DNA of 37,961 nt from Bacillota bacterium (lineage in GTDB: Bacteria; Bacillota; Sulfobacillia; UBA8153). Shown one piece after another: positions 5,316 to 24,860 of the stretch. The DNA lies in the NCBI GenBank assembly GCA_007130145.1, contig SLSY01000034.1, forward strand, positions 1 through 37,961. Reading direction: 5' to 3'. The position numbers were made by a program, and so were the translations under genes. Position 1 is the first letter of the stretch. Every line of letters begins with the position of its first letter. The notes beneath the pieces are model-generated. The model saw only the letters and a list, made by a program, of their open reading frames with translations, was not told the DNA's origin and searched no databases.

Positions 5316-6472
5316 CGTTTTCGCCCCCTTTGCCTTTGGGGTATAATCTTGACTTCTTCTACTGCATCGGCCGTGGCCCCTACGGCATAATCCACTTCAA
5401 GTTCGCTATTCATAGCCGACAAACTATAGCGTATCGCTCCGGTGAGCGCGTTGCCCCTCAGGCCCATAGCCTCCAAGACGTGACTGGCTTGGGGACGGCG
5501 GGAGTGACAGGCTGACCCGGTGGAAACGTGAACCTCACGCTCTGCCAAAGCCCGTACCAGCACCTCACCCCGGGCAACACCAGCGAAGGAGGCATTGACA
5601 ATGTGAGGAGCGGAGCGCTCGCCAGGAGGTCCGTTCAGCTGAAAGCCTTCAATTCCTTCTAGACCGGTTACCAAACGCTCTCTCAGACCCCGGAGCCCTT
5701 GGCTTCGCTCTCCTGTGAGGGTCGCGGCTTCTGCCAAACCCAGGATGCCGGGGACGTTTTCGGTGCCCGCCCTCAGCTGATTCTCTTGTTCGCCTCCCAA
5801 CAGCCAGGGTTCAATGCGAACACCTCGTTTTAGGCACAGGGCACCGGTCCCTTTGGGCCCATGGAGCTTATGACCACTCAAACTCAAGACATCTACGTTG
5901 GACAGGTCAGTTCTCAGTTTGCCCAGTCCCTGGACTCCGTCAACATGGAAAACGGCGTGAGGAGATTTTTCCTTGATCAGCGTTCCCATCTCTGCCAAAG
6001 GCTGCACCGACCCGACTTCATTGTTCACCCACATGACGCTCACCAAGATCGTGTCCTCAGTCAGGGCATCGGACAGGTGCTCGAGGCTGATTTCCCCCTC
6101 GCGGCTCACGGGTAATGTTACCACGTCAAACCCCCGCTCCCCCAAAACCCGGAAGGGCACGCGGATGGAGGGATGCTCCATGGCGGTGGTGATGATGCGC
6201 CGGCCTCGCTTCTCCCGCATGGCCGTAAGGCCAAAACAGGCCCAGTTGTTGGCTTCGGTCCCACCGGAGGTGAAATAAATCTCGTCACCGTGACAACCAA
6301 CCACCCGGGCCAGACGTTCCCGGGCTTCTTGTATCATTTTCTCCGCGGCCAGGCCTCTTGGGTGCAGGGAAGAAGGATTGCCGTAATCTCTCTCCATGGC
6401 CCGCGCCATCACCCGGACCACCTCTGGCCAGGCTCGGGTTGTTGCGCTGTTATCCAGGTACGCTTCGGTCAC
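5312..6472 (-). CDS. Cysteine desulfurase, likely the ThiI-dedicated NifZ/IscS-type enzyme
   Basis: A PLP enzyme that takes sulfur from cysteine as an enzyme-bound persulfide, leaving alanine. The 386-aa class-V aminotransferase fold shows the substrate/PLP motifs EHPS and HVDGVQG, the PLP lysine K202 in SGHKLHGPKG, RAGTEN, and the catalytic Cys C322 in STGSACHS. The start is GTG at 6472, matching the family start (MTEAYLDNSATT), with a GGGGG stretch 7 nt upstream. The coupling to thiI suggests its main client is ThiI, as with B. subtilis NifZ, rather than a general Fe-S scaffold; no iscU is visible. A promoter candidate lies at 6490-6517. Confidence 0.93.
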   Translation of the reverse strand: MTEAYLDNSATTRAWPEVVRVMARAMERDYGNPSSLHPRGLAAEKMIQEARERLARVVGCHGDEIYFTSGGTEANNWACFGLTAMREKRGRRIITTAMEHPSIRVPFRVLGERGFDVVTLPVSREGEISLEHLSDALTEDTILVSVMWVNNEVGSVQPLAEMGTLIKEKSPHAVFHVDGVQGLGKLRTDLSNVDVLSLSGHKLHGPKGTGALCLKRGVRIEPWLLGGEQENQLRAGTENVPGILGLAEAATLTGERSQGLRGLRERLVTGLEGIEGFQLNGPPGERSAPHIVNASFAGVARGEVLVRALAEREVHVSTGSACHSRRPQASHVLEAMGLRGNALTGAIRYSLSAMNSELEVDYAVGATADAVEEVKIIPQRQRGRKR

Positions 6473-6489
6473 AATAACACCCCCTGCCT

Positions 6490-6517
6490 ATTGTAGCACA
6501 AGGTCGCTTAACCCCAA
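6490..6517 (-). promoter_or_regulatory. Sigma-A-like promoter for the cysteine desulfurase-thiI operon
   Basis: On the minus strand a TACAAT -10 (6490-6495), preceded by TGC as an extended -10, lies 16 nt from TTGGGG (6512-6517). It is about 18 nt upstream of the GTG start, which leaves a very short leader. The -35 is poor, but the extended -10 makes it plausible. Confidence 0.45.
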
Positions 6518-6750
6518 ACTCGATGAGAGCGCAGGGTTTCCTCACCTGGCTAGCTATGGTCATGGCTCAACTGCTTGCCCATTGAGCCCGATTCCAAGCA
6601 TCAGCCCTCATACCGTTTGTGAGGCATCCGGCTCTCTTTTTTCGATGCTTAGCCCTTTCTCCCGGGAAAAGAGAGGGAATTGTGATAATTGTTGGTATTA
6701 TGCTAGAGGGGAGGATTCTGTCGCATTGGATTGAAAGGAGAGAAAAGAAG

Positions 6751-7098
6751 TTGATTCTACACATTCTGAGTAAAGAGCAATGGTTGGCGGCGCAAGACAA
6801 GGGGATGTATACCCCACCGAGCTTGAACACAACTGGTTTTGTCCACTGCTCCACGTCAGAACAAATAGTCGAAGTGGCGAATTCTCTATTTCGGGGACAG
6901 ACTGGCCTGGTCCTCTTGGTCATTGATCCCAAGAAGGTTTCGGCTAACGTGGTTTTCGAGGATCCATATAACCTGGGTAGTTTGTTTCCACATATCTACG
7001 GTCCGCTAAACCTCGATGCCGTGGTGGAAATCATGGAATTTCCACCCCAAAAAGACGGGAGCTTTGCACTGCCACAAAAGATGAATGCTTATTCTTAG
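6751..7098 (+). CDS. DUF952 family protein
   Basis: A small protein (115 aa) of the DUF952 family, whose molecular function is not established. Family features are visible: an opening ILHILSKEQWLAAQ, Y-x-P-x-S-L, GFVHCSTSEQ, a VAN-x-x-F helix, LVLLVIDPKK and the strongly conserved FPHIYGPLNLDAVVE. The fold has been compared with ADP-ribosyltransferase-like domains, but that is family-level inference. The start is TTG at 6751, 8 nt after GGAGAG (within AAAGGAGAG); longer forms would add 44 residues without conservation. An extended -10 (TGGTATTAT, ending at 6701) upstream may be its promoter. The gene is in the same orientation as the EVE gene 75 nt downstream. Confidence 0.85.
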   Translation: MILHILSKEQWLAAQDKGMYTPPSLNTTGFVHCSTSEQIVEVANSLFRGQTGLVLLVIDPKKVSANVVFEDPYNLGSLFPHIYGPLNLDAVVEIMEFPPQKDGSFALPQKMNAYS

Positions 7099-7173
7099 CA
7101 CCCACTGACATACAATAAGCGAACGATACCTGCCCCCAAGCACGAGGGTTAATTCTCCCCGAGGAGGAAGAAA

Positions 7174-7593
7174 GTGCAATACTGGCTACTGAAAACCGAA
7201 CCGGAAACCTACTCCTTCTCCGACCTGATCAGGGAAGGGACCACCGTGTGGGATGGAGTGCGCAATCACCGGGCCAAGGCCAACCTGGGCCGGATGCGCC
7301 AAGGAGATCAAGTCCTGATCTATCACACCGGAAAAGAGCGCTCCGCCGTGGGACGGGGATACATCTCCAAGTCCGCTTATTTGGATCCGACCGACCTCAC
7401 GGATACCTGGCTGGCCGTGGACGTGACCGCAACCGGGCCCTTGGCCTTTCCGGTATCTCTCAAAACTCTGCGCCAGCACAGTGCTTTTGTGGATTCCACC
7501 CTACTCACCGCTCCCCGCTTATCGGTGGTGCCCATTCCTCCACCCTTGTGGGAGGAAATGCTAAGAATGAGTGAAACTGGCCAAATCGAGTAG
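7174..7593 (+). CDS. EVE domain protein (PUA/YTH-like fold)
   Basis: A 139-aa single-domain protein. EVE domains are related to YTH and PUA folds and are thought to bind modified bases in DNA or RNA; some are fused to restriction enzymes, but stand-alone forms such as this one are common housekeeping-type genes. Visible family motifs are YWLLKTEPETYSFSDL, the WDGVRNHRAKANL aromatic/basic block, GDQVLIYHTGKERSAVGRG and the YLDPTDLT segment. The start is GTG at 7174 with GAGGAGG 6 nt upstream. No restriction or modification gene lies beside it. It ends about 130 nt before a strong bidirectional terminator shared with the convergent ATPase operon. Confidence 0.9.
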   Translation: MQYWLLKTEPETYSFSDLIREGTTVWDGVRNHRAKANLGRMRQGDQVLIYHTGKERSAVGRGYISKSAYLDPTDLTDTWLAVDVTATGPLAFPVSLKTLRQHSAFVDSTLLTAPRLSVVPIPPPLWEEMLRMSETGQIE

Positions 7594-7758: not shown

Positions 7759-8385
7759 TTATTCACCTCGTACAATATCCTTGATCTTCATCAAGCGAGT
7801 GGCATTGGAGCGTTCCATCTCGCCCAAACGCATGGCGATGTTCTTGACGGCAACCTCCAATTCGGGTATTAAGACATATTCCAGCGCGTTGACTCGCCGT
7901 CGCGTCCGCTCAATCTCATCGGCCAGGATCTCCACCGACCGCTCGACCTCTGCTAGGCGAATCAAGTCGGGCAGCACCGCAGCGAAAGCCCCCAGTGCAT
8001 CATCGAGTTCTGCCGAGGTCGTGGCCAAGCCGTAGGCATAGACGCTCGACTCGTCGGCGTCCTCGACCTTGAACTGAGGCACGACAACATTCATCACCTG
8101 CTTGAGAGCGACGCTGACCTTCAACTCATCGCGCGAAGACATGAGGGCTTCTTCCAGGGCTTCCCGCGACATCACCGCCCGGGAGACCAGGAAGCTCCGG
8201 TACGCCTGGCCCAAAAGGCGCTCCACGCGCTCGCGCACCTCTTTGTTCTCCCGCACCAGGCCCAGGAAGATCTTCATCAACTCGTCGCGCTTGTCCTTGA
8301 GCAGTTTGTGCCCGCGCTGAGCCATGCGTACCCGATTCTTGAGTTTGAGCAATTCCATCCTGGTCGCATTGACTCTGATTTCCAT
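7759..8385 (-). CDS. atpD: V-type ATP synthase subunit D (central stalk)
   Basis: The central rotor stalk subunit that turns inside the A3B3 head. The 208-aa product begins with the family signature (VNATRMELLKLKNRVRMAQRGHKLLKDKRDEL). It is made of two long coiled-coil helices, N-terminal (5-75) and C-terminal (130-205, ending VKNIAMRLGEMERSNATRLMKIKDIV), around a small central part. It is the last gene of the ATPase block and starts 20 nt after atpB ends. The bidirectional terminator begins just past its stop. The ribosome-binding site before the ATG is weak, so translation may depend on coupling with atpB. Confidence 0.96.
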   Translation of the reverse strand: MEIRVNATRMELLKLKNRVRMAQRGHKLLKDKRDELMKIFLGLVRENKEVRERVERLLGQAYRSFLVSRAVMSREALEEALMSSRDELKVSVALKQVMNVVVPQFKVEDADESSVYAYGLATTSAELDDALGAFAAVLPDLIRLAEVERSVEILADEIERTRRRVNALEYVLIPELEVAVKNIAMRLGEMERSNATRLMKIKDIVRGE

Positions 8386-8405
8386 GGTGGTCTCATCCCC
8401 GTTTC

Positions 8406-9797
8406 TTAATCCGCTGCCGGCGCGTCTTGGCGATTGAGATATTTCTCTACGTGCTCATCGCTGACTCGCTTCAGCTCGTTGCGCGGAATGATTTTCATCA
8501 GGCGCCACCCAATATCGAGAGTCTCCTCAATGGATCGCTCCACATTCTCCCCCTGCCGCACGAATTGCAGTTCAAACTCGTCGGCAAACTTGAAAAAGAG
8601 TCTATCGGCGGGGGTCAGGGCCGCTTCACCCAAAACAACGGCCAACTCCCTGGCTTCCTTCCCCCGGTCGTAAGCATCGGACAGTTGGTTGAGTACGTCA
8701 GCATGATCCTCACGGGTCTTGTCCGGCCCAATACCCTTATCCTTGAGACGAGACAGGGACAGTGATACGTTGATGGCCGGATAGATACCCTTCTTGTGCA
8801 GCTCACGTCCGAGGATTACCTGTCCCTCCGTGATATAACCGGTAAGGTCGGGAATGGGATGGGTCTTATCATCCTCCGGCATGGTCAAGATAGGAATCTG
8901 AGTAATGGAGCCCGGCTTTCCCTGCACGCGCCCGGCGCGTTCGTAAATGGTGGCCAGATCCGTATACATGTATCCTGGGTATCCCCGGCGCCCCGGCACT
9001 TCCTTGCGCGCGGCGGACACTTCTCGCAACGCCTCGCAGTAGTTGGTCATATCGGTCAGAATGACCAACACGTGCATGCCCTTTTCGTAGGCCAGATACT
9101 CGGCGGTGGTCAGAGCCATACGTGGGGTGGCAATGCGCTCGATCACCGGATCATTGGACAGGTTCATGAACAGGACGGCGCGCTCAATGGCCCCCGTGCG
9201 TCTGAAGTCGGTTATGAAATAGTTGGCTTCCTCAAAGGTGATGCCCATGGCCGCAAATACCACGGCAAAAGGCTCGGTCGTGCCCCTCACCTTCGCCTGA
9301 CGGGCAATTTGGGCTGCCATCTGGGAGTGAGGGAGACCACTGCCTGAGAAGATCGGTAGCTTCTGCCCTCTTACTAAGGGGTTCATACAATCGATAGCCG
9401 AGATACCCGTCTGAATGAACTCCGACGGATAGGCACGGGCAAAGGGATTGATGGGGTTGCCGTTAATATCCAGCCGTGTCTCGGCCAAAATGCGCGGACC
9501 CCCATCGATGGGGGTTCCAAAGCCGTCAAAGATGCGCCCCAACATGTCTTCGGACACACCCAACTCGATCACCTTGCCGAGAAAACGGACCTTCGTACGT
9601 CTCATATCAATGCCCGCCGTGCCCTCGAACAGCTGTACGAGCGCTCGCCCGGTGTGAGCCTCGAGGACTTTGCCCCGACGAACCTCGCCTCCGGGTAGTT
9701 CTACTTCCACCAGTTCATCGTACTGGACCGCATCTACTTTATCTACCATCATGAGAGGACCTGCCACCTCACTAATGGTACGGTACTCCTTTAGCAT
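8406..9797 (-). CDS. atpB: V-type ATP synthase subunit B (non-catalytic head)
   Basis: The non-catalytic head subunit of V1, forming the hexamer with A. The 463-aa product has the beta-barrel N terminus ([17 protein letters not shown]) and the nucleotide-binding domain. There the P-loop is replaced by the B-type [10 protein letters not shown]. Other B-type signatures are [38 protein letters not shown], and [30 protein letters not shown] precedes the ATG. It sits 13 nt after atpA, in the order A-B-D typical of bacterial V/A-type operons. Confidence 0.97.
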
Positions 9798-9810
9798 TGT
9801 CTTTCACCTC

Positions 9811-11556
9811 CTAAGCCGGAAACTCGCCAGTGACTTGCTCCGCCAGTTGAGCCAGCTTGCCCAGCTGATCTTCAGGAGCCAAGCGGGCACGGGCGATCTC
9901 ATCTCGCACCGGCAATTCCAGTATCTTATCAATGGATGTCCCTTCATCCAGCCACCGCAGGGCGGAATGATGGAAGGTCAAGATGATCTTGAGTACTTTG
10001 TACTGCTTTTCCATGGAGCAATAGGTATCAATGTCATGGAACGCGCTCTGGTAGAGAAAGTCCTCACGCAAAGACTTGGACGTCTCCAAGATCATGCGCT
10101 GGCGAGCTGACAGGGCATCCAAACCAACCAGTCTCACGATTTCCTGCAGTTCGGACTCCGTCTGTAGAAGCGACATGGCCTCCTGCCTGAGTTCCGGGAA
10201 ATCTTCTCCCGCATTGGTCCGGAAAAACGCATCCAGCGTGTCGGTATAGAGTGAATATGAGGTCAACCAGTTGATGGCCGGAAAGTGCTTTCGCGCCGCC
10301 AACCGGTCATCCAAACCCCAGAAGACCTTAACGACACGAAGGGTGGCCTGGGTTACGGGCTCGGACAAGTCACCACCGGGAGGAGAGACCGCGCCCACAA
10401 TGCTCAAAGTCCCTTCTCTACCTTGCGAACCCGCACAGATGACGCGACCGGCCCTTTCATAGAACTCTGCAGCCCGCGACCCTAGGTAGGCAGGATATCC
10501 CTCTTCGCCCGGCATCTCTTCCAAGCGACCAGAAATCTCGCGCAGCGCCTCGGCCCAGCGGGATGTCGAATCAGCCATGAGGGCAACCTGATAGCCCATA
10601 TCGCGATAATATTCGGCCAGCGTCAACCCGGTGTAGATGGAAGCCTCCCGGGCCGCCACCGGCATGTTGGACGTATTGGCCACCAGGATGGTACGCTCCA
10701 TAAGAGGCTCGCCCGAGCGGGGATCCTTCAGCTCCGGGAACTCCAGCAAAACGTCGGTCATCTCATTTCCTCGTTCGCCGCAACCGATGAAGACGATGAT
10801 CTCAGCATCAGCCCACTTGGACAACTGGTGCTGTACGACCGTCTTGCCCGAACCAAAAGGACCGGGAATGCAAGCGGTTCCCCCTTTGGCTATGGGGAAG
10901 AAGGTATCAATGACCCTCTGCCCGGTGACAAGGGGGTCCTCGGGAGCCAGCCGCTCCTTGATGGGACGGCCCACACGCACGGGCCATCGCTGCAGCATGG
11001 TAACTTCACGGGACTCGCCTTCGACGTCCAACACGGCCACGGTCTCAGTGACCGTATACTCTCCTGCCTTGATGGAACGCACTGTAGCTCCGGGGATGCC
11101 CGGTGGTACCATGACCCGATGCTCAACCAGAATGGTCTCCTGCACCGTACCCAGCACATCACCACTTATCACCGTATCTCCGACCTCAACGGCGGGCTTG
11201 AACTCCCATTTCTTCTCACGATCCAGGCCCGGTACTTCCAAACCACGACCGATAAACTCCCCGGATAGTTCCATCAAGCCACTCAACGGTCGTTGAATGC
11301 CATCATAAATTGAACGCATAAGTCCCGGTCCCAGTTCCACGCTTAGCGGCTGCCCGGTGCTGACCACCGGTTCACCCGGACTTACGCCGGAGGTTTCTTC
11401 GTAAACCTGAATCGATGCGCGATTGCCGCGCATCTCGATCACTTCCCCCAAGAGCCTGCCCTCGCCAACGCGCACCACATCGTACATGCGCACATCGGTC
11501 ATGTTTTCGGCGACGACCAGGGGGCCCGATATTTTGACGATCCTTCCTTCTTGCAT
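9811..11556 (-). CDS. atpA: V-type ATP synthase subunit A (catalytic head)
   Basis: The catalytic head subunit that hydrolyses or makes ATP. At 581 aa it has the length of bacterial V/A-type A subunits. This includes the bulge or non-homologous region (about 95-190) that distinguishes A subunits from F-type beta. The Walker A is GPFGSGKT at 232-239, the catalytic-type Glu lies in [13 protein letters not shown] (about 261), and the Walker B region is [20 protein letters not shown]. The C-terminal helical domain is intact. The ATG directly follows the stop of atpF with no spacer, so coupling is likely. The form is clearly not F-type alpha or beta. Confidence 0.97.
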
Positions 11557-11883
11557 CTATTTTCCCTCTTCCTTGAACAGGATGTCTACCCCTATGGCCT
11601 TCTCCACGCGAGACTTGAGCCTCGCCATGCCTATGCCACTTGAACCTCGATGGTCGGGAAGAATGGTTACGACAGGACGCGGCGCTTGCGTCAGCTCGTC
11701 CAACTCCGCTTGAATCTCACGCGCCACCGGTTCGGTGATAAACACGATCTCATAGTCCTGTTCTCTCGCGTTCGCCAAGGCCTCCAAGGCGCCCTGGCGA
11801 TCTGTCGCGGGCATAACCGTAATGCCCAGGGCTTTAAAGCCCAAGATCGCATCACGTTGACCGATAAAGGCAATTCTAGACAT
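11557..11883 (-). CDS. atpF: V-type ATP synthase subunit F (stalk, NtpG-type)
   Basis: A small central-stalk subunit that binds D. The 108-aa product starts at ATG 11883 (MSRIAFIGQRDAILGFKALG), which overlaps the end of atpC by 8 bases. The frame is open further upstream, but that part runs through atpC in another frame and is not this family. Typical features are the Rossmann-like beta-strand start, DYEIVFITEPVAREIQAELDE and a C-terminal helix with SRVEKAIGVDIL. Subunit F can modulate ATPase activity in V/A-type enzymes. No strong ribosome site is visible, as expected for a translationally coupled gene. Confidence 0.93.
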   Translation of the reverse strand: MSRIAFIGQRDAILGFKALGITVMPATDRQGALEALANAREQDYEIVFITEPVAREIQAELDELTQAPRPVVTILPDHRGSSGIGMARLKSRVEKAIGVDILFKEEGK

Positions 11884-12904
11884 AGGTATCACGCAGCCTT
11901 TCCCGGATGGCTTCCGTGCTGGCTCCGTTGATTTTCCCGCTGAGCAAGATGCGAACGTTGCGCACATCGTTCTCCTTGGCCCATAAGAAAGCCACAACCG
12001 GCCAGGGGCCCATGGCAACATAGCGCGACGTCTTGAGCATCTTGAGTATGAAATTGTCCGCTTCTCGTTCGACCCGCCCCGGGTCTGCACCGGCACTGCG
12101 AATGAGTTCCTCATAAGGAGACCCCAGAGACGAAGCCACCTCATCGGCAGCTCGGCCCAGAAGCTCTTCCCAGCGATAAGGGGGCAGCTTACCACCCTCA
12201 ACCAGCGCTAAACGGAGAAACTGCAAGCTCTTGCCCAGTTTGTTGGAGCGAAGGAGAATCTTCAAGTTGGCCATTTCTCCCAACGCGACGGCCATCTCGT
12301 GAATCTCAGGGCCCAAGACCTCAGCTTGTTGACGTGAATCTCCCAGCTGATACCGGTCAAGAACCACGTCAATGATCTGGGGATCTCCGGTGGCCTGATA
12401 ACGCTCTTGTGCGTCCCCAACCGCCTGCTGGTAGCTGGCGGGTAGGCGCTCTTGCCATGAGACGAGCACCTCAGGCTCGTGCTCATGAGGCCGGACCTCT
12501 TCAAATGCGTCCAGCTGAGAGCGCAATTGGGACACAGAAACCGTGCCCAGGTCACTGAAGGCTCCTTCATTCGCTGTCTCATGGAGCAGCGCTTCCTTGA
12601 GCAACACTTTCAGATTGTGATAGTCATTGCGAATGCCCAACCAGTAAACCACATCGGGGCTGGGCAAGAAACTGGTCACATAGCTATAGAGTCCGGTCAG
12701 GTGCTCCCCGAGCACACGTTCGAAGTCTTGCAGGGGTTCTTCGGGCAGATCCCACAATTCCCTGACCATCTTCCAGACGTCATCAGCCACTTGCATGTCC
12801 AGCATCCGGTCTATTTCCTGATCACGCAAGAGCCGTGTTTCCAACACCCGAATGCGGGCAACGGCCGCCAAGTAATCTATTTCCTCACGTCTTATTGCGT
12901 CCAT
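11876..12904 (-). CDS. atpC: V-type ATP synthase subunit C (d-like, stalk to ring adaptor)
   Basis: The funnel-shaped adaptor that joins the central stalk to the proteolipid ring. The 342-aa product has the all-helical three-fold repeat of this family, with YWLGIRNDYHNLKVLLKEAL, FLRLALVEGG and FLWAKENDVRNVRILLSGK; the internal I-R-N-D-Y-x-N-L-K and E-N-D-V-R-N-V-R pieces mark the repeats. The start is ATG at 12904 with CAGGAG 8 nt upstream; an in-frame extension to 12940 overlaps atpE and is not conserved. It sits 4 nt after atpE and overlaps atpF by 8 nt. Confidence 0.93.
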   Translation of the reverse strand: MDAIRREEIDYLAAVARIRVLETRLLRDQEIDRMLDMQVADDVWKMVRELWDLPEEPLQDFERVLGEHLTGLYSYVTSFLPSPDVVYWLGIRNDYHNLKVLLKEALLHETANEGAFSDLGTVSVSQLRSQLDAFEEVRPHEHEPEVLVSWQERLPASYQQAVGDAQERYQATGDPQIIDVVLDRYQLGDSRQQAEVLGPEIHEMAVALGEMANLKILLRSNKLGKSLQFLRLALVEGGKLPPYRWEELLGRAADEVASSLGSPYEELIRSAGADPGRVEREADNFILKMLKTSRYVAMGPWPVVAFLWAKENDVRNVRILLSGKINGASTEAIRERLRDTYV

Positions 12905-12908
12905 TAAA

Positions 12909-13514
12909 TCAGCTCCTGTTGCCAAACAGGTAGGCGGCAATCTCGGGTTCCAAGTCTTCGCGCAGGGTCTTTAGGATCGCATCAAATGATGCGTTGACTT
13001 CAAGGTCCTCGCCTCTAAGAATGCACCCGCCGGTAATGGCCACCGAATCCGGGGACAATCCCACCGTGCCCTCCAACCCCTTCTCCTTTAGTTCCTGATT
13101 GAGTCCTTTGAGGAAGTCTGCGGTAATTCGCTGCCGGTCATGGGCATTGACCACAATTTCCTCACTCCCGCGCACAGCGTGAGCGGACACCACCTGTTTG
13201 ATCAGCTGCAAGTAGGTATCATCATCCAGTTGCGATAAGCGCTCCAATGCAGCTTGGAAAGCCTCATCCAGAGCTTCCTGCTTGGCCGCGAGCACGTCTC
13301 GTCGTCCCTGAAGCCTGGCCAGAGTCAGGATGTGACCGGCCTGGGTCTGGGCTTTCTTCTCAGCATCAGACACAATGCTATTGGCTTGTTGCAAGGCGTC
13401 CCTTTGCCCTTCTTCCATAATCTCCGAAGAGCGTGCCTCCGCATCCGCCACGATGCGCTCACCCCGTGCTCTTGCCTCGGCTTCAATCCTGGCAATAATG
13501 TCCTTTAACGCCAT
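12909..13514 (-). CDS. atpE: V-type ATP synthase subunit E (peripheral stalk)
   Basis: The peripheral-stalk subunit that holds the head against the membrane part; it pairs with subunit H. The 201-aa product has an N-terminal coiled coil rich in Ala, Glu, Arg and Lys (about 5-95, ARARGERIVADAEARSSEIM) and a globular C-terminal domain (GCILRGEDLEVNASFDAIL). The start is ATG at 13514 with GGGAG 8 nt upstream; GTG at 13523 is an in-frame alternative. It lies 18 nt after atpK. Confidence 0.93.
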   Translation of the reverse strand: MALKDIIARIEAEARARGERIVADAEARSSEIMEEGQRDALQQANSIVSDAEKKAQTQAGHILTLARLQGRRDVLAAKQEALDEAFQAALERLSQLDDDTYLQLIKQVVSAHAVRGSEEIVVNAHDRQRITADFLKGLNQELKEKGLEGTVGLSPDSVAITGGCILRGEDLEVNASFDAILKTLREDLEPEIAAYLFGNRS

Positions 13515-13532
13515 CGTCAGCACTCCCGCACT

Positions 13533-16049
<2,517 letters not shown>

Positions 16050-16063
<14 letters not shown>

Positions 16064-16376
16064 AGTCGTCCACGATCCTTTCAACGATCACGCTGATGGC
16101 CTTCTCTCTGCCCGCCTGAGCTCCCTGGGCTACCGTCTCCTTATCCTGAGCGGCACGCCGGCGCATTTGGTCCGCTTTTTCGCGCGCATCCTTCTCGGCT
16201 GCTTCTACCATGCGCCCCGCCTGCTCCTGGGCTTGCTTTCGAGCTTCAACCACCAGCTGTCTTGCCTCTTTTTGTGCTTGTGAGATGATGGCATTGGCCT
16301 GCTTCTCGGCTGATTGCACCTGTTCTTGTGCCTGTCGTTCAGCCTCTTTGATCTTGGTCAGTGATGTTATGGACAC
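16050..16376 (-). CDS. V-type ATP synthase subunit H/G (peripheral stalk coiled coil)
   Basis: A small coiled-coil subunit (108 aa) that pairs with subunit E to form the peripheral stalk. Almost the whole product is charged helix rich in Gln, Glu, Ala, Arg and Lys (KEARQLVVEARKQAQEQAG), ending with a short segment (GREKAISVIVERIVDDYG) typical of the H/NtpF family. The GTG start at 16376 lies 5 nt after GGTGAG inside the end of wecB; the genes overlap by 10 nt. It is the first gene of the ATPase block, so the ATPase has no intergenic space of its own for a promoter. Confidence 0.88.
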
Positions 16377-17533
16377 AGATTCTCACCACCCTCATCCATG
16401 GCAATCCAAGGCGTTGGAGGATCATTCCTCCGGCCAAAATGATGGAGGATGCCCTCCACAGTACGACGGGCCGCCGCTCCGTCCCCGTAGGGATTGCGAG
16501 CGCAGGCCATGCTTTGGTAAGCTGTTTTACAAGCCACCAATCTTCTCACGGCGTTGGCAATGCGCACCGGATCTGTACCTACCAGTTGAACGGTACCCGC
16601 TGCCACCGCTTCGGGTCTTTCCGTTTCCTCGCGCGTCAACAGTACAGGAACTCCCAGTGCGGGTGCCTCTTCCTGCAGCCCGCCCGAGTCAGTAATGATA
16701 AGAAATGAGCATTGCATCAGCCGCGCCCATTCAACATAGGATTGTGGTGTTAGCAAACATACCCGCACGGTGCCGGATAAGTGTTTGTGCAACAGATCCT
16801 TCACAGCCGGATTGGGATGCACCGACACAACCAGGCGTACATCCTCATATCCTTCGGCGATATCCACCAGCGCCCGGGCCACCCTCTCCAGCGGAGCTCC
16901 GAAGCTCTCGCGACGGTGAACATCCACCAAGATCATCTTCTCGCGCTCTTGGACTCGGGGCGTTGTGTCGCGGTGCACTGTCCACAAGAGAGCATCGATA
17001 GCCGTGTTACCGGTAACGTAGACGCCCGGACCGGCAATACCTTCTCTCGATAGATTCTCACGGGACACCTCGGTCGGGCAGAAATGGAGATCGCAGACGC
17101 TGTCGGCGACCTTGCGCATGACCTCTTCGGGAAACGGGGCCCACTTGTTGCCGGTGCGCAGTCCTGCTTCCACGTGACCCACACGCAAACGGCAAAAGAA
17201 GGCAGCCAAGGACGCAATCCCCGTAGTCAGTGTATCACCGTGCACCAGCACCAGGTCCGGCTGCTCCGTTTGGAAGATAGGTTGAAGTCCTCCTAGCACC
17301 CGGATCGCCGTCTCACTAAGAGACTGGCGCTCTCTCATTACATCCAGATCATAGTCAGGCACCAAAGAAAAGTGGTTGAGCACCCCATCCAGCATCTCCC
17401 GGTGCTGCGCGGTGACCACCACCCGGCTGTCGATCTCCTCAGCATGGCGACCCAGTTCCATCACCACTGGAGCCATCTTGATCGCTTCGGGCCGGGTACC
17501 AAACACCGTCAAAACCCGCAATCTATCCGACAT
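16367..17533 (-). CDS. wecB: UDP-N-acetylglucosamine 2-epimerase (non-hydrolysing)
   Basis: Interconverts UDP-GlcNAc and UDP-ManNAc, the donor for the second sugar of wall-polymer linkage units (MnaA in Bacillus). The 388-aa GT-B-type enzyme shows VFGTRPEAIKMAPVV at the N terminus, TAQHREMLDG, VLVHGDTLTT, VGHVEAGLRTG, and the C-terminal UDP-binding block ITDSGGLQEEAPALGVP followed by TREETERPEA. The start is ATG at 17533 with GAGGG 8 nt upstream; ATG 17563 is an alternative. It stands between tagO/wecA and the ATPase genes and overlaps atpH by 10 nt. A 103-nt gap with a perfect hairpin precedes it. Confidence 0.96.
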   Translation of the reverse strand: MSDRLRVLTVFGTRPEAIKMAPVVMELGRHAEEIDSRVVVTAQHREMLDGVLNHFSLVPDYDLDVMRERQSLSETAIRVLGGLQPIFQTEQPDLVLVHGDTLTTGIASLAAFFCRLRVGHVEAGLRTGNKWAPFPEEVMRKVADSVCDLHFCPTEVSRENLSREGIAGPGVYVTGNTAIDALLWTVHRDTTPRVQEREKMILVDVHRRESFGAPLERVARALVDIAEGYEDVRLVVSVHPNPAVKDLLHKHLSGTVRVCLLTPQSYVEWARLMQCSFLIITDSGGLQEEAPALGVPVLLTREETERPEAVAAGTVQLVGTDPVRIANAVRRLVACKTAYQSMACARNPYGDGAAARRTVEGILHHFGRRNDPPTPWIAMDEGGENLCP

Positions 17534-17584
17534 CACCACAACCCTCTTTTTCCGATCGCTCATGGCAAAACCCGGATCGCCATC

Positions 17585-17603
17585 CCTGGCAGAATATGCC
17601 AGG
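17585..17603 (-). other. Perfect hairpin in the tagO-wecB gap
   Basis: CCTGGCA-TATTC-TGCCAGG on the minus strand is a 7-bp perfect stem with a 5-nt loop, 52 nt before the wecB start. No T-run follows it, so it is not an ordinary terminator. It lies in the transcript leader or between cistrons and could affect mRNA processing, stability or coupling of wecB and the ATPase genes. Confidence 0.5.
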
Positions 17604-17636
17604 CGCACCGGGTCAAAAAGAACCACCGCTAGAATT

Positions 17637-18665
17637 TCAATGCTTAATGTCTTTCTCCTGCTTGATTTCCAAGATACCTACCTTTTTCCCGATGGCAATC
17701 ATCAATCCAACAACCGTAATCATGAGAAGACCGCCGTGACGCGGGTCCAAAGCAGTCATCAAGGCGGCCGAAGAACCCAAGAGCAAACTACCCATATACA
17801 TACTGATAACCACCTGACGCTGGGTCATCCCCAAACGCAGCAGGCGGTGATGCAAGTGTCCACCGTCAGCCTCGTAAATGGGCCGGCCGTTGGCAGCCCG
17901 GCGCAGCACAGAAAAAAACGCATCGAACATGGGCAAGCCCAAAGCCAAAAAAGGGATGAGCAGGGCAATCGCAGCGGTGCTCTTCAGTGTCCCCTGCATC
18001 GCAATGGCTGCCAGAACATACCCAATGAACATAGAACCGCCATCACCCATGAAAATGCGGGCAGGGTTAAAATTGTAGGGTAAGAAACCCAACGTGCTCC
18101 CACTCAAGGCAGCAGCGGCCAAGGCCACCCCAGGTTGCCCTTGCTGCCAGGCAACATAGAGCAAGGTTAGACCCGCGATAGAAGAGATGCCTGCGGCCAA
18201 ACCATCCAACCCATCAGACAAGTTGACCACGTTAATGACCCCCACTACCCATGCCAGTGTGATGGGAAGAGCCAGCCAGCCCAAAAGAAATAGACCGCCC
18301 AGCGGATTGGTTATGTATCCTACCTGTACTCCACCGAAATACAGCACGGCCGCTCCCACCAACTGTCCCAAGAGCTTGACCCAGGGGCGCAGGGACACAA
18401 CGTCATCGACAATGCCCAAGAGCAAAATGAAAAGACCACCTGATAGAACGGTAAACCAGGGGAAATCGCCTCTTCCGGCCACCAAGACCGCCCCGGCAAA
18501 TCCGGCCGCAATGGCTAAGCCTCCTAGATAGGGCATGGGTTCGCGATGGACACTTCTCTCACCGGGTATGGCCACGGCTCCCGTGCGCAGGGCCAGCCAG
18601 CGACAAGCGGGGGTAGCAAGCAATGCGATGAAAAAAGCTACGATAAAAACCACCAGAGCATCCAT
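17637..18665 (-). CDS. Undecaprenyl-phosphate GlcNAc-1-phosphate transferase (TagO/WecA type)
   Basis: A membrane enzyme that starts wall polymers by moving GlcNAc-1-phosphate from UDP-GlcNAc to undecaprenyl phosphate. The 342-aa product has about ten or eleven membrane helices and the cytoplasmic motifs of the MraY/WecA family: GIVDDVVSLRPWVKLLGQ (D87-D88), VNLSDGLDGLAAG (D151, D154), FMGDGGSMFIG, and the C-terminal DGGHLHHRLLRLG. The HxHHR form marks the WecA/TagO branch, not MraY. The start is ATG at 18665 with GGAG 8 nt upstream. Together with wecB it would supply the GlcNAc-ManNAc linkage unit of teichoic or related polymers. Confidence 0.93.
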   Translation of the reverse strand: MDALVVFIVAFFIALLATPACRWLALRTGAVAIPGERSVHREPMPYLGGLAIAAGFAGAVLVAGRGDFPWFTVLSGGLFILLLGIVDDVVSLRPWVKLLGQLVGAAVLYFGGVQVGYITNPLGGLFLLGWLALPITLAWVVGVINVVNLSDGLDGLAAGISSIAGLTLLYVAWQQGQPGVALAAAALSGSTLGFLPYNFNPARIFMGDGGSMFIGYVLAAIAMQGTLKSTAAIALLIPFLALGLPMFDAFFSVLRRAANGRPIYEADGGHLHHRLLRLGMTQRQVVISMYMGSLLLGSSAALMTALDPRHGGLLMITVVGLMIAIGKKVGILEIKQEKDIKH

Positions 18666-18743
18666 CACGGCCTCTCCCTCCTCTGGGGCAAACCCTCTCC
18701 CATTGTAGTCCACGTCATGAGATTCTGTCAACCAGAAAAAGCC

Positions 18744-19178
18744 TTAGAGCAGCCTCGTTCTTTCAACTCCCGCTTGCTTTAGCATCTCTTGAGCCATCTG
18801 GTCAGGATACTCGTCACGAAAAACAACCCGGCCGATCCCAGCGTTGATGAGCATCTTAGTGCAAAGACTGCACGGCTCGGTGGTAGAGTACAGCGTGGCT
18901 CCCGATACAGCGATACCGTGACGAGCCGCCTGAATCAAGCCGTTTTGCTCCGCATGCAGCCCCCGGCACAACTCCTGACGCTCGCCCGAAGGAATCTTCT
19001 GGCGCGCGCACCCCGTATCCAGGCAATGAGTGAGTCCCGCCGGTGCTCCATTGTAGCCTGTGGCCAGAATATGCTTATCCTTGACCAGAATAGCTCCTAT
19101 CTGCCGGCGCAGGCACGTGGCCCGCCGCGCCACCACCGTTGCTACCTCCATAAAATACTCGTCCCAGCTTGGTCGCAC
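18744..19178 (-). CDS. comEB: dCMP deaminase (ComEB family)
   Basis: A zinc-dependent deaminase converting dCMP to dUMP for dTTP synthesis; named ComEB from its place in a Bacillus competence operon. The 144-aa product has the zinc ligands H75-A-E77 and P102-C-S-L-C106 (PCSLCTKML), the substrate-type GYNGAPAG loop, and the extra Cys/His cluster (HCLDTGCA) typical of dCMP deaminases. The start is GTG at 19178, 7 nt after a perfect AGGAGG (19186-19191), giving [13 protein letters not shown] as in homologues. The frame stays open upstream without conservation. Gaps of 101 nt before and 78 nt after it are larger than in the rest of the block. Confidence 0.95.
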
Positions 19179-19279
19179 CCGGTCCCCTCCTCTTCTTGTT
19201 TGCATCTGGATCGAGGGCAAGACCCTTCCACTTGCTGTCCCACCCAAAGCTACCAACAAGCAAAGACGGCTCTGCCCCG

Positions 19280-19873
19280 TCATTCCTCCGGCTTCATAAC
19301 GCACTTACCAAAGCGTTGTTCCACCTCATCGTAGGCATATACAGCCCGGGCCCCCCCAATCAACTTGGGGCGTGTGCGCGCCAATGTAACATGGGCATGG
19401 CCGATGCTCTTGCCCTGAGGCCGAACCGGCACCGCCACCGGTCTCAGGTGCATGCCGATCAGGGTATCGCCAATATCGAGACCAGCGTGGGCTGCTATTG
19501 ACTCCACAACCACCCCGTCAGGCAGGCGCTCCATCAATTCGGTTGCCACCGCACCCCCGGCGCCGCAGATGGGAAGGACGCGCACTTCGGTCAGATCGTA
19601 TTTCTCCATCGCGGCACTGGATATAACCAAAGCCCGGTTCAGATGCTCGCAGCATTGAACTGCCAGAAAGACACCGCTTTCGCCCAGTTCTCCTTCCACT
19701 CCGTCCAGCACAGCTTGGGCCACTTGGGTACTGCCGGCCGAACCAATCCGTTGTCCTTGAATCTCCGAGGTGCTGCAACCAATGACCAGGATCTGCCCGG
19801 CCTTCAAACGCGCCGCTTCCAACAACGTGCGTGTGACCTCACTTACTTGGGCTGTGATGTGCTCCAGATCCAT
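19280..19873 (-). CDS. ywlG: DUF436/TIGR01440 family protein (YwlG)
   Basis: A conserved Firmicutes protein whose function is unknown. The 197-aa length fits the family, and typical segments are seen: [37 protein letters not shown], the glycine-rich [14 protein letters not shown], and a C-terminal GQS/GKS-type stretch ([20 protein letters not shown]) ending with [11 protein letters not shown] at 19873 follows GGGAGG by 6 nt. It is 14 nt downstream of rpiB, which is also its neighbour in B. subtilis. The Cys-Cys pair in QCCEH suggests metal or redox chemistry, but that is only inference. Confidence 0.92.
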
Positions 19874-19887
19874 CGCTAACCTCCCAA

Positions 19888-20343
19888 CTACTTCTTATGG
19901 TAGCGGCTCTCAATATCGGCCAACTGCTCCAGACGACGCGCATGCCGCTCTCCGGCAAACTCGGTGCAAAGCCAAGTATCCACGATGTCCAAAGCCAGAC
20001 CCAAACCGATGACACGGGCTCCGAGCGTCAAGATATTGGCATCATTATGCTCTCGGGAGGCCCGGGCACTGAAGACATCATTACATAACGCAGCCCGCAC
20101 CCCTGGCACCTTGTTGGCCACCATGCACATACCAATGCCGGTCCCGCATACCAAGATGCCCCGGTCATACTCGCCCCGGGCCACACCCTCAGCCACATCT
20201 AGAGCCAGAGGAGGATAATCCACCGACTCCTCGCCTCCAGTGCCCCGATCAAACACGATATGAGGTCCGTCACCAAGATGTGCCTTGATCGCTTCCTTCA
20301 TCTGATAGCCACCATGGTCACTGCCCAGGGCAATCTTCATCAT
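19888..20343 (-). CDS. rpiB: Ribose-5-phosphate isomerase B family (RpiB)
   Basis: Interconverts ribose 5-phosphate and ribulose 5-phosphate in the pentose phosphate pathway; the same fold also handles allose or galactose phosphates. The 151-aa product has GSDHGGYQMKEAI, the DYPPLA segment, the active-site Cys in VCGTGIGMCMVANK, and REHNDANILTLGARV. The start is set at ATG 20343; ATG 20349 and 20340 are in frame, and GAGG lies 6 nt before 20343. The gene begins inside the end of ywlE (26-nt overlap), so coupling is likely. With the transaldolase at the right end of the window it gives two pentose phosphate steps. Confidence 0.95.
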   Translation of the reverse strand: MMKIALGSDHGGYQMKEAIKAHLGDGPHIVFDRGTGGEESVDYPPLALDVAEGVARGEYDRGILVCGTGIGMCMVANKVPGVRAALCNDVFSARASREHNDANILTLGARVIGLGLALDIVDTWLCTEFAGERHARRLEQLADIESRYHKK

Positions 20344-20815
20344 CTTCATCCTCTACTCGTATTTTTTCGACCAGAGCGGTTACCGCCTGTTCGACTGTAT
20401 CCACCATGTTCTCATATTCGTCCCGCCCGCCACCGTACGGATCGGGAATATCACCGCACCCACCGACAAACTCACGGAGAAGCCGGGTGCGACCTTCTGC
20501 TACGTTGCTCATAGCTAATACGGCCTGGCGCTGGGAGTCGGTCATAGTGAGCACCCAGTCGGCCTCCTCAATCATCTCAGATGTCAACTGCCGGGCCCCA
20601 TGATCTACCTTCTGTCCCCACCGCTCTGTCAGAAGCCGCTGAGCATGCTCACTAAAAGGCGCTCCCGGATGGGCCGCCAGACCCGCCGACGCCACCTCCG
20701 CCTCACCTTGACCCGGTATCTTCTCCAGCATCCAACGGGTCATCCATTCGGCCGTAGGAGAGCGACAGGTATTACCAGTACACACAAAGAGAATGCGAAC
20801 CGGTGTTTTGGTCAT
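20318..20815 (-). CDS. ywlE: Low-molecular-weight phosphatase, predicted protein-arginine phosphatase (YwlE type)
   Basis: A Cys-based phosphatase. The 165-aa product opens with the P-loop CTGNTCRSPTAE and carries the acid-loop DPYGGG near the C terminus. In B. subtilis YwlE the Thr inside C-T-G-N-T-C-R gives selectivity for phosphoarginine over phosphotyrosine, and the same Thr is present here. A role in reversing McsB arginine phosphorylation is therefore predicted; no mcsB is in the window. The start is ATG at 20815, 4 nt after ywlC ends, with GGTGGGTG upstream. The last residues are acidic (VEDEDDED) and overlap rpiB. Confidence 0.93.
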   Translation of the reverse strand: MTKTPVRILFVCTGNTCRSPTAEWMTRWMLEKIPGQGEAEVASAGLAAHPGAPFSEHAQRLLTERWGQKVDHGARQLTSEMIEEADWVLTMTDSQRQAVLAMSNVAEGRTRLLREFVGGCGDIPDPYGGGRDEYENMVDTVEQAVTALVEKIRVEDEDDEDCPGQ

Positions 20816-20819
20816 GTCT

Positions 20820-21851
20820 TCACCCACCTTTCCCGTCACGGCCTGCCGCTGCCCGGCGCAATCGGTCCATAATCGCCCGGCCCAAACCCACTTCGGGCAG
20901 CGCTTCACAGTATACTACATCCACACCCCATTCATCCACCTGGCGCAGGGCCCCAAACAAGCGGGCCGATACGATCTGGGAATCAGAATAAGACCCCAGT
21001 ACCAAAATGGGGATGTCGCCATAACGCTGGGCATTCTCCTGGGTCGCAAGCACACCGGCCCGCAGCCCGCGCCGCTGGCATCGGGTGATTCTCTTCGTGA
21101 TCTCCTCTGCTATCTCCTGTCGACTTTCCCCTTCCACCAGCACCAAAGGCGTACGGGGAGAGTAATGCCCGTAGCGCTGTCCCGGAGAGCGGCGTAGTGA
21201 CGCATGATCTTGGTCAGTCACCGTGCCCAGGGGGGTGTATTCCGAGAGTTGCTCAAGAGTAACACCGCCAGGACGCAGGATGACCGGGGGACACTGCGTC
21301 ACGTCCAGCACGGTCGATTCCACACCCAGAGGACAATGACCGCCGTCCACCACCGCGGCAATGCGCCCCCCCAAATCGGCGAGGACGTGATCTGCTGTCG
21401 TCGGGCTGGGTCGACCCGACACATTGGCACTGGGGGCGGCCACGGGTACCCGCGCTGCCCGCAAAAGGGCCAGGGCAACCGGGTGATCAGGCATGCGCAC
21501 CGCCACCGTCTCCAAGCCGCCGCTCACCACGCAAGGCACAGCATGTGAACGGCCCAAAACCAGAGTCAAGGGGCCGGGCCAAAATGCCCGCATGAGCCGG
21601 TGGGCCAGAGGGGGAATCGTATCGACCAGGGCATCTACCTGCCCCAATGAACCCACATGAACGATAAGGGGATTATCAGCCGGTCTGCCCTTGGCAACAA
21701 AGATCCCTTCCACCGCCTGGCCATCCAGGGCGTTGGCTCCCAACCCATATACGGTCTCAGTGGGAAATGCCACCAGTTTTCCTGCACGCAGAAGCTTTGC
21801 CCCCAGGGCGATGGCTTCAGCGTCATATGCAAGTCGCATGGTGCAAGTCAC
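20820..21851 (-). CDS. ywlC: L-threonylcarbamoyladenylate synthase (Sua5/YwlC)
   Basis: Makes threonylcarbamoyl-AMP from threonine, bicarbonate and ATP for the t6A37 modification of ANN-decoding tRNAs. The 343-aa product is the two-domain Sua5 form. It has a YrdC domain (1-205, with GKLVAFPTETVYGLGANA, FVAKGRPADNPLIVHV, FWPGPLTLVL and APSANVSGRPSPT) and a C-terminal Sua5 domain (about 225-335) after the linker PGQRYGHYSPRTPL. The start is GTG at 21851 with AAGGAG 8 nt upstream. One base separates it from the stop of prmC. Confidence 0.96.
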   Translation of the reverse strand: MTCTMRLAYDAEAIALGAKLLRAGKLVAFPTETVYGLGANALDGQAVEGIFVAKGRPADNPLIVHVGSLGQVDALVDTIPPLAHRLMRAFWPGPLTLVLGRSHAVPCVVSGGLETVAVRMPDHPVALALLRAARVPVAAPSANVSGRPSPTTADHVLADLGGRIAAVVDGGHCPLGVESTVLDVTQCPPVILRPGGVTLEQLSEYTPLGTVTDQDHASLRRSPGQRYGHYSPRTPLVLVEGESRQEIAEEITKRITRCQRRGLRAGVLATQENAQRYGDIPILVLGSYSDSQIVSARLFGALRQVDEWGVDVVYCEALPEVGLGRAIMDRLRRAAAGRDGKGG

Positions 21852-21852
21852 G

Positions 21853-22704
21853 TTAGGTTCTCCTTACACTGGCAACGATCGTCCGCTCTACGCCACGGTA
21901 GTCCTTGATGATGCGTTCGAGCGCCCACCCGTTTTCGGCCAACAGTTCACTCACCGGCCAGACCTGATTGTGCCCTACCTCTAGCAACAGTTTACCATGG
22001 GTACGAAGCCAGGCATGATGTTTTGCCAGCTGGCGATAAAAAAACAGACCATCTGCTCCTCCATCCAGAGCCTGGCGTGGTTCGTAATCGCGCACCTCAC
22101 AGGGGAGCGCCCCGAGATCCTGCGAGCGAACATAGGGAGGGTTGGAGATCATGACATCCACCCTGCCCTCCAAGCCCAGGCCAACAAGGGGCTCGAGCAA
22201 ATGTCCATGGTAAAAGAATACCCGATCTGCCACCTTGTGCCGGCAGCAGTTAACGCGGGCTATGCGCAAAGCAGCGCGCGATATGTCAGTAGCCCAGACC
22301 CGACTCTGCGGAGCATGGACCGCCAACGCCACGGCGATGGCGCCGCTTCCGGTGCCCACCTCCACGACCCGTTGAGGTGCAAGGGCCAATGCCGCTTCCA
22401 CCAAAAACTCACTCTCCGGACGGGGGATGAGCACCCCCGGTTCCACCTGAAAGTCCAGTGACCAAAACTCCTGGTGCCCAATGATATACTGAACAGGCTC
22501 ACCGGTCACCCGCCGCTTCACCCACTCCCGTGCGCGGCGCACCTGGGCAGGCGATACGGGTGCTTCCGGATTCAGGTGCAGTTGGGATTGCTCTATCTTT
22601 AGGGCATGAGCAAGCAAAAGAGCCGCCTCCCGGGCGGCATGCTCCGCGCTCGAGGCGGCCAATGTCTTGCGAATCTCCTTGTAAAGCTCATGAAGTTGCA
22701 CCAC
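21853..22704 (-). CDS. prmC: Release factor glutamine methyltransferase PrmC (HemK)
   Basis: Methylates the Gln of the GGQ motif of release factors with S-adenosylmethionine, raising termination efficiency. The 283-aa product has the helical N domain (1-75, with GEPVQYIIGHQEFWSLDF), then the Rossmann methyltransferase domain: VVEVGTGSGAIAVALA as the SAM loop and the catalytic SNPPYV motif. IPRPESE stands where IPRPETE is usual. The start is GTG 22704 or 22701, both after GGAGG. It follows prfA, its substrate gene, after 11 nt, the usual pairing in bacteria. Confidence 0.96.
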   Translation of the reverse strand: MVQLHELYKEIRKTLAASSAEHAAREAALLLAHALKIEQSQLHLNPEAPVSPAQVRRAREWVKRRVTGEPVQYIIGHQEFWSLDFQVEPGVLIPRPESEFLVEAALALAPQRVVEVGTGSGAIAVALAVHAPQSRVWATDISRAALRIARVNCCRHKVADRVFFYHGHLLEPLVGLGLEGRVDVMISNPPYVRSQDLGALPCEVRDYEPRQALDGGADGLFFYRQLAKHHAWLRTHGKLLLEVGHNQVWPVSELLAENGWALERIIKDYRGVERTIVASVRRT

Positions 22705-22715
22705 GCTACCCTCCG

Positions 22716-23783
22716 TTAGTGCACGGCTTCCTCCATCTTCTCCTCCTGCTCGGCCATACGCAATGCATCAACAAACTCATCGAGTTCTCCCTGCAGCACT
22801 CCTTCCCAGCGATGGGACGTCAGACCAATGCGGTGATCGGTAATACGGGACTGAGGATGGTTATAGGTGCGAATGCGTTCAGAGCGGTCACCCGTTCCCA
22901 TCTGCGAACGGCGCTCACGTGACATTTCTTCTTGCTGCTGTTGCAATGCCACATCCAAAAGACGGGCTCTGAGCACCTTCATGGCCCTATCCTTGTTCTT
23001 GTGCTGCGACTTCTCATCTTGACAGCTAGAAACGATCCCGGTGGGAAGGTGGGTGATACGCACCGCCGAATAGGTGGTATTCACGCTTTGCCCTCCCGGC
23101 CCGCTGGCGCAAAAGATATCGATACGCAATTCATCGGGGGAAATATCCACATCCACTTCTTCTGCCTCCGGCAGCACCGCCACGGTGACAGTAGAAGTGT
23201 GAATTCGTCCTCCCGACTCGGTCACCGGCACGCGCTGAACACGATGCACACCGCTTTCATACTTCAACTGGCTGAACGCACCCTTGCCTTCGATCATGAA
23301 GATGACCTCTTTGAAACCACCAATGTCAGTGGGACTGGAGCTGAGAACTTCCACCTTCCAACCTTTTCTCTCCGCATAACGAGCATACATGCGATGGAGA
23401 TCGCCAGCAAAGAGCGCCGCCTCGGTGCCGCCGGCGCCCGCCCGGATTTCCACGATGACGTTGCGTTCATCATTGGGGTCCTTCGGCAAGAGTGCCTGAC
23501 GCAACTGTTGCAAAAGCTCTTCTTCACGCGACTGCAAGCTGGACAGTTCGCTCTGAGCCAGCTGGCGCAGTTCCCGATCATCCTCTTGAAACATGGCTTT
23601 AGCTTCAACCATCTCTTGTTGCACACGTTGGAGCTCGCTATACCACGCAACCACATCTTGCAGTCGTGAATGCTCCTGTGCATATTCCTTGAACTTATGG
23701 TGAGAGGACATCACCTCGGGATCGGAGAGCAACCTCTCCAACTCCTGATAGCGACGGACCATCGCCTCTATCTTCTCAAACAC
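22716..23783 (-). CDS. prfA: Peptide chain release factor 1
   Basis: Recognises UAA and UAG stop codons and triggers peptide release. The 355-aa product has the anticodon-like PxT motif as P186-V-T188 ([14 protein letters not shown]) and the peptidyl-transfer GGQ at 230-232 ([15 protein letters not shown]); PxT marks RF1, not RF2. The GTG start at 23783 has AAGGTGG 6 nt upstream and gives the usual MFEKIEAM N terminus. It overlaps the end of the DUF1385 gene by 8 bases and is followed by prmC. Confidence 0.97.
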
Positions 23784-24648
23784 TCTGAACCACCTTCTTG
23801 TCGGCAAGTACGGCCTGGAGTGCAGCCGCTGCTACCTCGATCTGAGAATCATCCGGGGTCCGTGTGGTATATCGCTGTAGCATGAGTCCGGGCCAGCTGA
23901 TAGCCTGCACCAAGGGCGATCGAGACCGTCCCGCCCAGCGGATCAGCTCATAGGACACCCCAGCGACAACGGGCAATAGCACAAGGCGCAAGACGATGCG
24001 CTGCCAAATGCCCGGCCAACCAAAAAACGAAAACAAAATCACGCTCACCAGCATCACTACCAGCAAGAAACTGGTGCCGCAGCGCGGATGCTTGAGAGAA
24101 AAGTCCCGCACCACCTCAGGCTCCAAACTCTTCTGGTTCTCGTAGGCGTGAATGGCCTGATGCTCTGCCCCGTGATACGCCAACAGGCGTTGCACCTCAG
24201 GCAGCCGGGAAATCGCCACCAAGTATAATGTCAATATGGAAACGCGAACCACACCTTCGGTTAGATTCAACCAAAAGCGATGGGCAATAAGGCCCCGCAA
24301 GAACGAAACCAGCACCGTTGGCAGGATGATAAACAGTCCTACGGACAACAGCAAAGCTAGCCCCACCGCCAGCACGGTCTCCCGGCGGGTAAGGTGTTCT
24401 TCGGGATCTTCGGACAAATTGGCGGAGACCAAAAGAGCATCAATGCCTGCAGTTAGGGTCTCGGCCAACGTCACCAAGCCCCGGATAATGGGCCATCCAT
24501 ACCAAGGCTTTAAGGTCAGCCAAGAGCGAGCCGGCGTCACTTCTACATGCACTTTTCCCGATGCCAAACGCACGGCCACCGCTCTGGCGGTGGGCCCTCG
24601 CATCATGACACCCTCAATCACCGCTTGTCCGCCGTAATGGAATTCCAC
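23776..24648 (-). CDS. DUF1385 membrane protein (YqhQ-like)
   Basis: A conserved integral membrane protein with no established function. The 290-aa product opens with [15 protein letters not shown], the family hallmark, then has three or four membrane helices (about 110-180 and 205-260). The conserved [13 protein letters not shown] lies between them, and [12 protein letters not shown] follows. These His, Glu and Cys residues resemble a metal site, but this is inference. The start is GTG at 24648, with GGAAGG 6 nt upstream; its first base is the last base of the rpmE stop (TAGTG), so coupling is probable. It commonly lies between rpmE and prfA in Clostridia. Confidence 0.93.
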
Positions 24649-24860
24649 TACTTGCCTTCCGCTGTCTTGCCGTACTTGCGGCGGAAACGCTCTACGCGGC
24701 CACCGCTGTCGACCATCTTCTGTACGCCGGTATAGAAAGGATGACAGGCAGAGCAAATCTCCACCCGCAAACCCGTCTTGGTGGAGCCCATATCGAACTC
24801 AGCTCCACACGCACAGGTCACCTTGGTCTTGGTGTACTCGGGATGCTTACCCTTTTTCAT
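24648..24860 (-). CDS. rpmE: 50S ribosomal protein L31 (zinc-binding form)
   Basis: A 70-aa ribosomal protein that bridges the subunits. It has the four-Cys zinc site C16-A-C18 and C37-x-x-C40 ([12 protein letters not shown]), so it is the C+ form used when zinc is available, not the Cys-less replacement. The N terminus MKKGKHPEY is typical. GAGGTGAG precedes the ATG. A good sigma-A-like promoter lies 40 nt upstream, and this gene heads the twenty-gene minus-strand block. Confidence 0.97.

Follow-up and report, generated by a model that had tools for sequence, protein, structure and literature searches.

Probable in-place replacement of an F-type ATP synthase operon by a sodium-type V-ATPase operon in Sulfobacillia

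Introduction

Why does a V-type ATPase operon stand, in a member of the Sulfobacillia, among genes that in Bacillus and many Clostridia surround the F-type atp operon? The window analysed here, which is the whole stretch of 37,961 nucleotides of contig SLSY01000034.1 (GenBank assembly GCA_007130145.1, GTDB lineage UBA8153), raises this question, and an earlier reading of its letters (the original prediction) had suggested either in-place replacement of one rotary ATPase by another or an ancestral V-type in this lineage. ATP synthases serve in rooting and dating the tree of life, and as a rule phylogenetic trees are the only basis on which their horizontal exchange is inferred; in this case it can be read on the chromosome itself, as the same slot and neighbours, a different machine and a left-over leader gene. 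That V/A-type ATPases spread horizontally among bacteria is already known (PMC10656485), as is a V-ATPase without an F-ATPase in this group (PMC10215811); no account of the in-place replacement was found in the literature searched. We assign a probability of roughly 0.87 to an in-place, non-orthologous replacement, in which an atpZ-led F operon between wecB and murA-spoIID was lost, a horizontally acquired sodium-type V operon came to occupy its slot, and vertical inheritance followed.

Results

The window carries a complete V-type operon in an intact gene frame

Open reading frames and Pfam searches identified a complete V-type ATPase operon at 7759-16376 on the minus strand, with all nine genes present in the predicted order, H-I-K-E-C-F-A-B-D. 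The features of the locus are as follows.

873..4075, minus strand: right frame, spoIID, M23 (spoIIQ-like), spoIIID and mbl (Pfam for the first three; mbl from its ORF and conservation)
4131..7593, both strands: thiI and nifS-like genes (minus), DUF952 and EVE genes (plus), between V-D and spoIID (Pfam, context)
7759..8385, minus strand: V-type subunit D, central shaft (PF01813)
8406..9797, minus strand: V-type subunit B (PF00006)
9811..11556, minus strand: V-type subunit A, catalytic, with GPFGSGKT P-loop (PF00006)
11557..11874, minus strand: V-type subunit F (PF01990)
11876..12940, minus strand: V-type subunit C, d-like (PF01992)
12909..13523, minus strand: V-type subunit E (PF01991)
13533..14075, minus strand: V-type subunit K, rotor with two hairpins and an E. 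hirae-like sodium site L-T-Q-Q-E (PF00137, 2bl2 match, residues)
14099..16084, minus strand: V-type subunit I, stator, a-like (PF01496)
16050..16376, minus strand: V-type subunit H, G-like peripheral stalk (V-ATPase_G_2, 20.7 bits, below cut-off; position)
16367..17626, minus strand: wecB/mnaA, UDP-GlcNAc 2-epimerase, left edge of the swapped segment (PF02350, conserved neighbour)
17637..24860, minus strand: left frame, wecA, comEB, ywlG, rpiB, ywlE, ywlC, prmC, prfA, DUF1385 and rpmE (Pfam, conservation)

Subunits D, F, C, E, K and I scored above their Pfam cut-offs, and A and B were recognised through PF00006; the match of H fell short of its cut-off of 28 bits, and this assignment comes mainly from position. 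The PF01990 match of subunit F begins at an internal ATG within the ORF 11557-12201, and subunit A shares 71-79% identity with class relatives.

The predicted gene frame was recovered from rpmE to ywlG on one side and with spoIID, M23, spoIIID and mbl on the other, but rho, which had been placed next to rpmE, lies at 34267-35517, with argS, pepF, a transporter and other genes in between. Both murA and ywmB are missing within the window, as had been claimed. The place that murA holds in relatives is taken here by the thiI, nifS, DUF952 and EVE genes, and EPSP/MurA-family genes occur on two other contigs of the genome (C164 and C230). Because murA still adjoins the V operon in V-bearing relatives, its absence is confined to the window's lineage.

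At the left junction H begins, with a GTG start, inside the last codons of wecB, an overlap of 10 bp (wecB terminus CTG TGT CCA TAA; H start GTG TCC ATA). The same wecB-V junction is present in G001, in G036 (on a contig of 1.1 Mb) and in G068, whose genome is a single contig, and this recurrence in independent assemblies excludes contamination at the V locus as well as the assembly join that the original prediction had allowed for. No notable repeats border the V operon in the window; those found are weak and chance-like, which rules out a repeat-bounded insertion.

The same genome encodes an N-type F-ATPase on another contig

The assembly to which the window belongs (2.37 Mb, 258 contigs, 96% complete) contains a single F-type a subunit, and no canonical operon of the atpIBEFHAGDC type was found in it. 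The a subunit lies inside a complete N-type F-ATPase operon on contig C153 (L008, 1739-8363; order beta-epsilon-Q-R-a-c-b-alpha-gamma), in which AtpR scored 59.2 bits and the Q gene matched PF09527. The search for F-type genes elsewhere in the genome, proposed with the original prediction, turned up this N-type enzyme. This operon resembles described N-ATPases (PMC4154653, PMC5376962) in gene order and in its AtpQ-like and AtpR genes; however, those were described beside a regular F-ATPase, whereas here one accompanies a V-ATPase.

The C153 c subunit (GQGR...IESTAIY) looks sodium-type-like by eye and aligns with sodium-type c subunits in a PDB search, and the enzyme is predicted from these residues to be sodium-coupled, as the V-ATPase rotor is by its site residues. 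Contamination is an unlikely source of C153, since its composition fits its own genome (GC 0.557; mean tetranucleotide r 0.485, vs. ranges of 0.34-0.52 for own fragments and 0.23-0.34 for contigs of other genomes).

V occupies the F slot in a subset of families

Among 154 genomes of the class, which are not independent of one another and most of which are fragmentary MAGs, V and F were almost mutually exclusive: 28 had V only, 115 F only, 3 both and 8 neither (V subunit I in 31/154; F subunit a in 118/154). As a separate observation, G003 (94% complete, 1.5 Mb; ribosomal region L212) had neither V-type I nor F-type a, and an assembly gap is possible there.

The class arrangement is wecB-atpZ-F operon-murA-spoIID in F genomes and wecB-V operon-murA-spoIID in V genomes (murA in relatives was assigned by Pfam for one ORF and from sequence for the others). 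The F operon stood at the slot, with atpZ in front, in G011, G015, G023, G022, G045, G026 and G052, and the V operon in G016, G036, G006, G047, G060, G039, G053 and G068; V also adjoins wecB in G001, of the same family as the window's genome, and is separated from it by one gene in G014. Where the contig extends far enough, murA and spoIID adjoin the V operon in most readable V contexts. The proposed comparison of gene order bore out F in the slot in most class contexts read and V there in a subset of families, and random placement would not land V at one site across family after family. A random-placement probability that was calculated depends on assumed slot numbers and carries no weight in this argument.

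Several genomes depart from this pattern. In G010 V lies beside murA-spoIID, but the rpmE-to-wecB block is inverted (L155). Both genomes of family f25 (G025, G151; L258, L260) show wecB-murA-spoIID with an empty slot and the V operon on another contig, and in G028 V lies elsewhere, with no wecB close by. Two V genomes, G014 (L250) and G020 (L251), carry canonical F operons at other sites; that of G020 adjoins hydrogenase-like genes.

The F operon was ancestral at the slot, and atpZ was left behind

We compared 20 regions around atpB from other Bacillota. The ywlC/ywlE/rpiB/comEB/wecB block precedes F and murA follows it in 15 of the 20, with spoIID visible in 11; among the remainder, G178 has the left block only, G186 and G176 the right side only, and G179 and G171 neither. 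Because F holds the slot in these 15 regions, we take F at this site to be ancestral.

A trace of that operon appears at two V junctions. In G039 a 79-residue ORF between wecB and H is a PF09527 protein (52.5 bits), and G053 has a 48-bit match to the same family in the same position after wecB; F-type a subunits are absent from both genomes. The window itself has no trace of atpZ. Among 80 named V loci, some lacking upstream sequence, only one has an atpZ-like gene before V (Dethiobacter, L074; 30.9 bits by Pfam), again in a ywlC-rpiB-glyA-comEB context, which rules out atpZ as an ordinary V-operon member. From its sequence and position, we read the atpZ at the G039 and G053 junctions as the scar of the replaced F operon. 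Many V genomes have further PF09527 homologues at other places, most of them weaker, so the family is not limited to F operons, and the G039 and G053 copies could be retained for a function of their own.

Together, F in the slot in the class and in outgroups, V there in a subset of families and atpZ at two junctions sustain the replacement that had been suggested. The reverse history, in which the class ancestor had V at the site and F replaced it in other families, could draw on the presence of V in 11 families of the class; we regard it as very improbable, given that most outgroup contexts, like the class F genomes read, have F at the site, and that the F leader gene was found before V while no V relic was noticed before F. 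The ancestral V-type named as an alternative is accordingly disfavoured.

Trees separate vertical inheritance from separate arrivals

The species tree was built from 18 ribosomal-operon ORFs and the V tree from subunits A and B. The ribosomal tree recovered a V-only clade A (f1, f10, f14, f16, f40 and f6; support 100/99) and a clade B (f33 and f39, plus f20 in a quick tree). Constraining A and B together was allowed (p 0.67), and constraining all V genomes together was rejected (p=0.009). In the V tree all class V sequences form one clade (support 99), with f25 near f20 and G028 basal; the sister of this clade, the candidate donor side, is poorly placed. The two trees are concordant within the main V clade, as expected of a swap followed by vertical descent, whereas the V genes of f25 and G028 group with other class V and their genomes do not. 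The conflict between ATPase and species trees that the original prediction expected of a replacement was thus seen for f25 and G028 and was missing within the main V clade.

The ribosomal tree allows a single origin of V at the slot; a single origin of all V genomes is rejected, and f25 and G028 have this V type at other places. Most simply, one in-place swap took place in the ancestor of A and B, and V reached f25 and G028 separately. The count of swaps, one to several, is uncertain, since the species tree is poorly supported at depth.

Five rows of the F alpha/beta tree, which come from partial loci and sit on a very long branch, were disregarded. In this tree the canonical F operons of G014 and G020 form a group (96/99) apart from class-native F genes. 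Because of this position, and because they sit elsewhere in their genomes, these operons were probably re-acquired. The empty slot of one branch and the apparently re-acquired F-types of others add to what can be read from the chromosome, and the class offers a dense natural series for asking why cells trade a synthase for a sodium pump.

The mechanism that we favour would start from an ancestor with a canonical, atpZ-led F operon between wecB and murA-spoIID. In an ancestor of the window's clade this operon would have disappeared, its slot being taken by a sodium-type V-ATPase operon that came in by horizontal transfer, joined the upstream wecB unit and passed to descendants by vertical inheritance. 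The V operon probably inserted downstream of atpZ, either at the F operon or next to it, and the F genes were then deleted. However, F loss may have preceded V gain, and the order of events could be the reverse: in this variant, deletion of F left wecB-murA-spoIID, and V arrived later, either in the emptied slot or at a remote site. Family f25 (G025, G151) fits this exactly, its slot being empty and its V operon lying at another place, and G028 likewise carries V away from any close wecB, but the variant leaves unexplained both the frequent landing of V exactly at the slot and the atpZ kept in front of it, and we consider it unlikely, if worth keeping in mind.

A sodium-type rotor and its known counterparts

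The sodium-binding residues of Enterococcus hirae NtpK are well established. The best solved match of subunit K was the E. hirae sodium rotor 2bl2 (E 1.2e-36), and the class as a whole conserves the equivalents of L61, T64, Q65, Q110 and E139, except that L is I in G010 and G053. The window's K is thus like that of the E. hirae Na+ V-ATPase (Ntp) in having two hairpins and all five sodium ligands; unlike Ntp, the window's operon sits in the F-type atp slot, wecB-spoIID, and its sodium coupling is a prediction. Most likely, judging from these residues, the V-ATPase pumps Na+ out of a fermenting cell at the expense of ATP.

The nearest described counterpart is 'Ca. Fermentithermobacillus carboniphilus' Bu02, a relative with a published complete genome, which is described as fermentative, lacking an F-type ATPase and having a V-ATPase with the sodium motif (PMC10215811). 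Taking G068 as Bu02, its enzyme is like the window's in V clade, locus and sodium motif, and it has V only; the window's genome additionally has the N-ATPase. A search of the paper found no discussion of chromosomal position or replacement.

Deinococcus-Thermus is likewise a bacterial lineage with an archaeal/vacuolar-type enzyme, and no same-site replacement with a leader-gene scar was found described there (PMC1274311). Gene displacement in situ is a known concept (Omelchenko et al. 2003, cited in PMC1274311), in which a horizontally acquired gene takes the position of its counterpart within a conserved operon; here, by contrast, a whole operon is replaced, and most subunits of the new complex are not orthologous. 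In a limited search of the open-access literature, no paper was found to describe the same-site exchange of an entire F operon for a V operon that leaves a leader gene as a scar.

V operons at this slot in other Bacillota

V operons also lie at or beside the slot in unrelated Bacillota. That of Dethiobacter (L074) lies in the ywlC-rpiB-glyA-comEB context, L088 reads rpiB-V-barnase/barstar-murA, and L077 (Tissierellia) reads V-ywmB-murA-spoIID; in L087 comEB-wecA-wecB is followed by three genes and then V, and in L090 and L121 the V operon comes after rpiB. Such loci (L074, L077, L087 and L088) would fit an import of the whole region by homologous recombination from a donor with V already in the slot. 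We hold this import to be improbable, given that the flank genes group V genomes with their class relatives (in the flank gene tree V genomes stay in the class and the main subgroups are recovered, although several deep branches are weak) and that the V genes of the other lineages fall outside the class V clade.

Because the V genes of these other lineages lie outside the class V clade, V has come to this slot on more than one occasion. There is about an even chance that the wecB-to-murA atp slot is a recurrent docking place, at which V displaced F independently in several Bacillota lineages (this class, Dethiobacter, Tissierellia and other Clostridia), landing beside F, which was then lost, with atpZ as the typical scar.

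In another Bacillota MAG (L089:1105-17342) an F operon led by atpI follows directly downstream of a V operon. We rejected this locus as a proven intermediate, V and F being adjacent but the left neighbour being a TRAP transporter-like ORF that leaves the slot position unproven. In L088 (13782-14535) the genes between the V operon and murA encode a barnase-like lipoprotein and a barstar-like protein.
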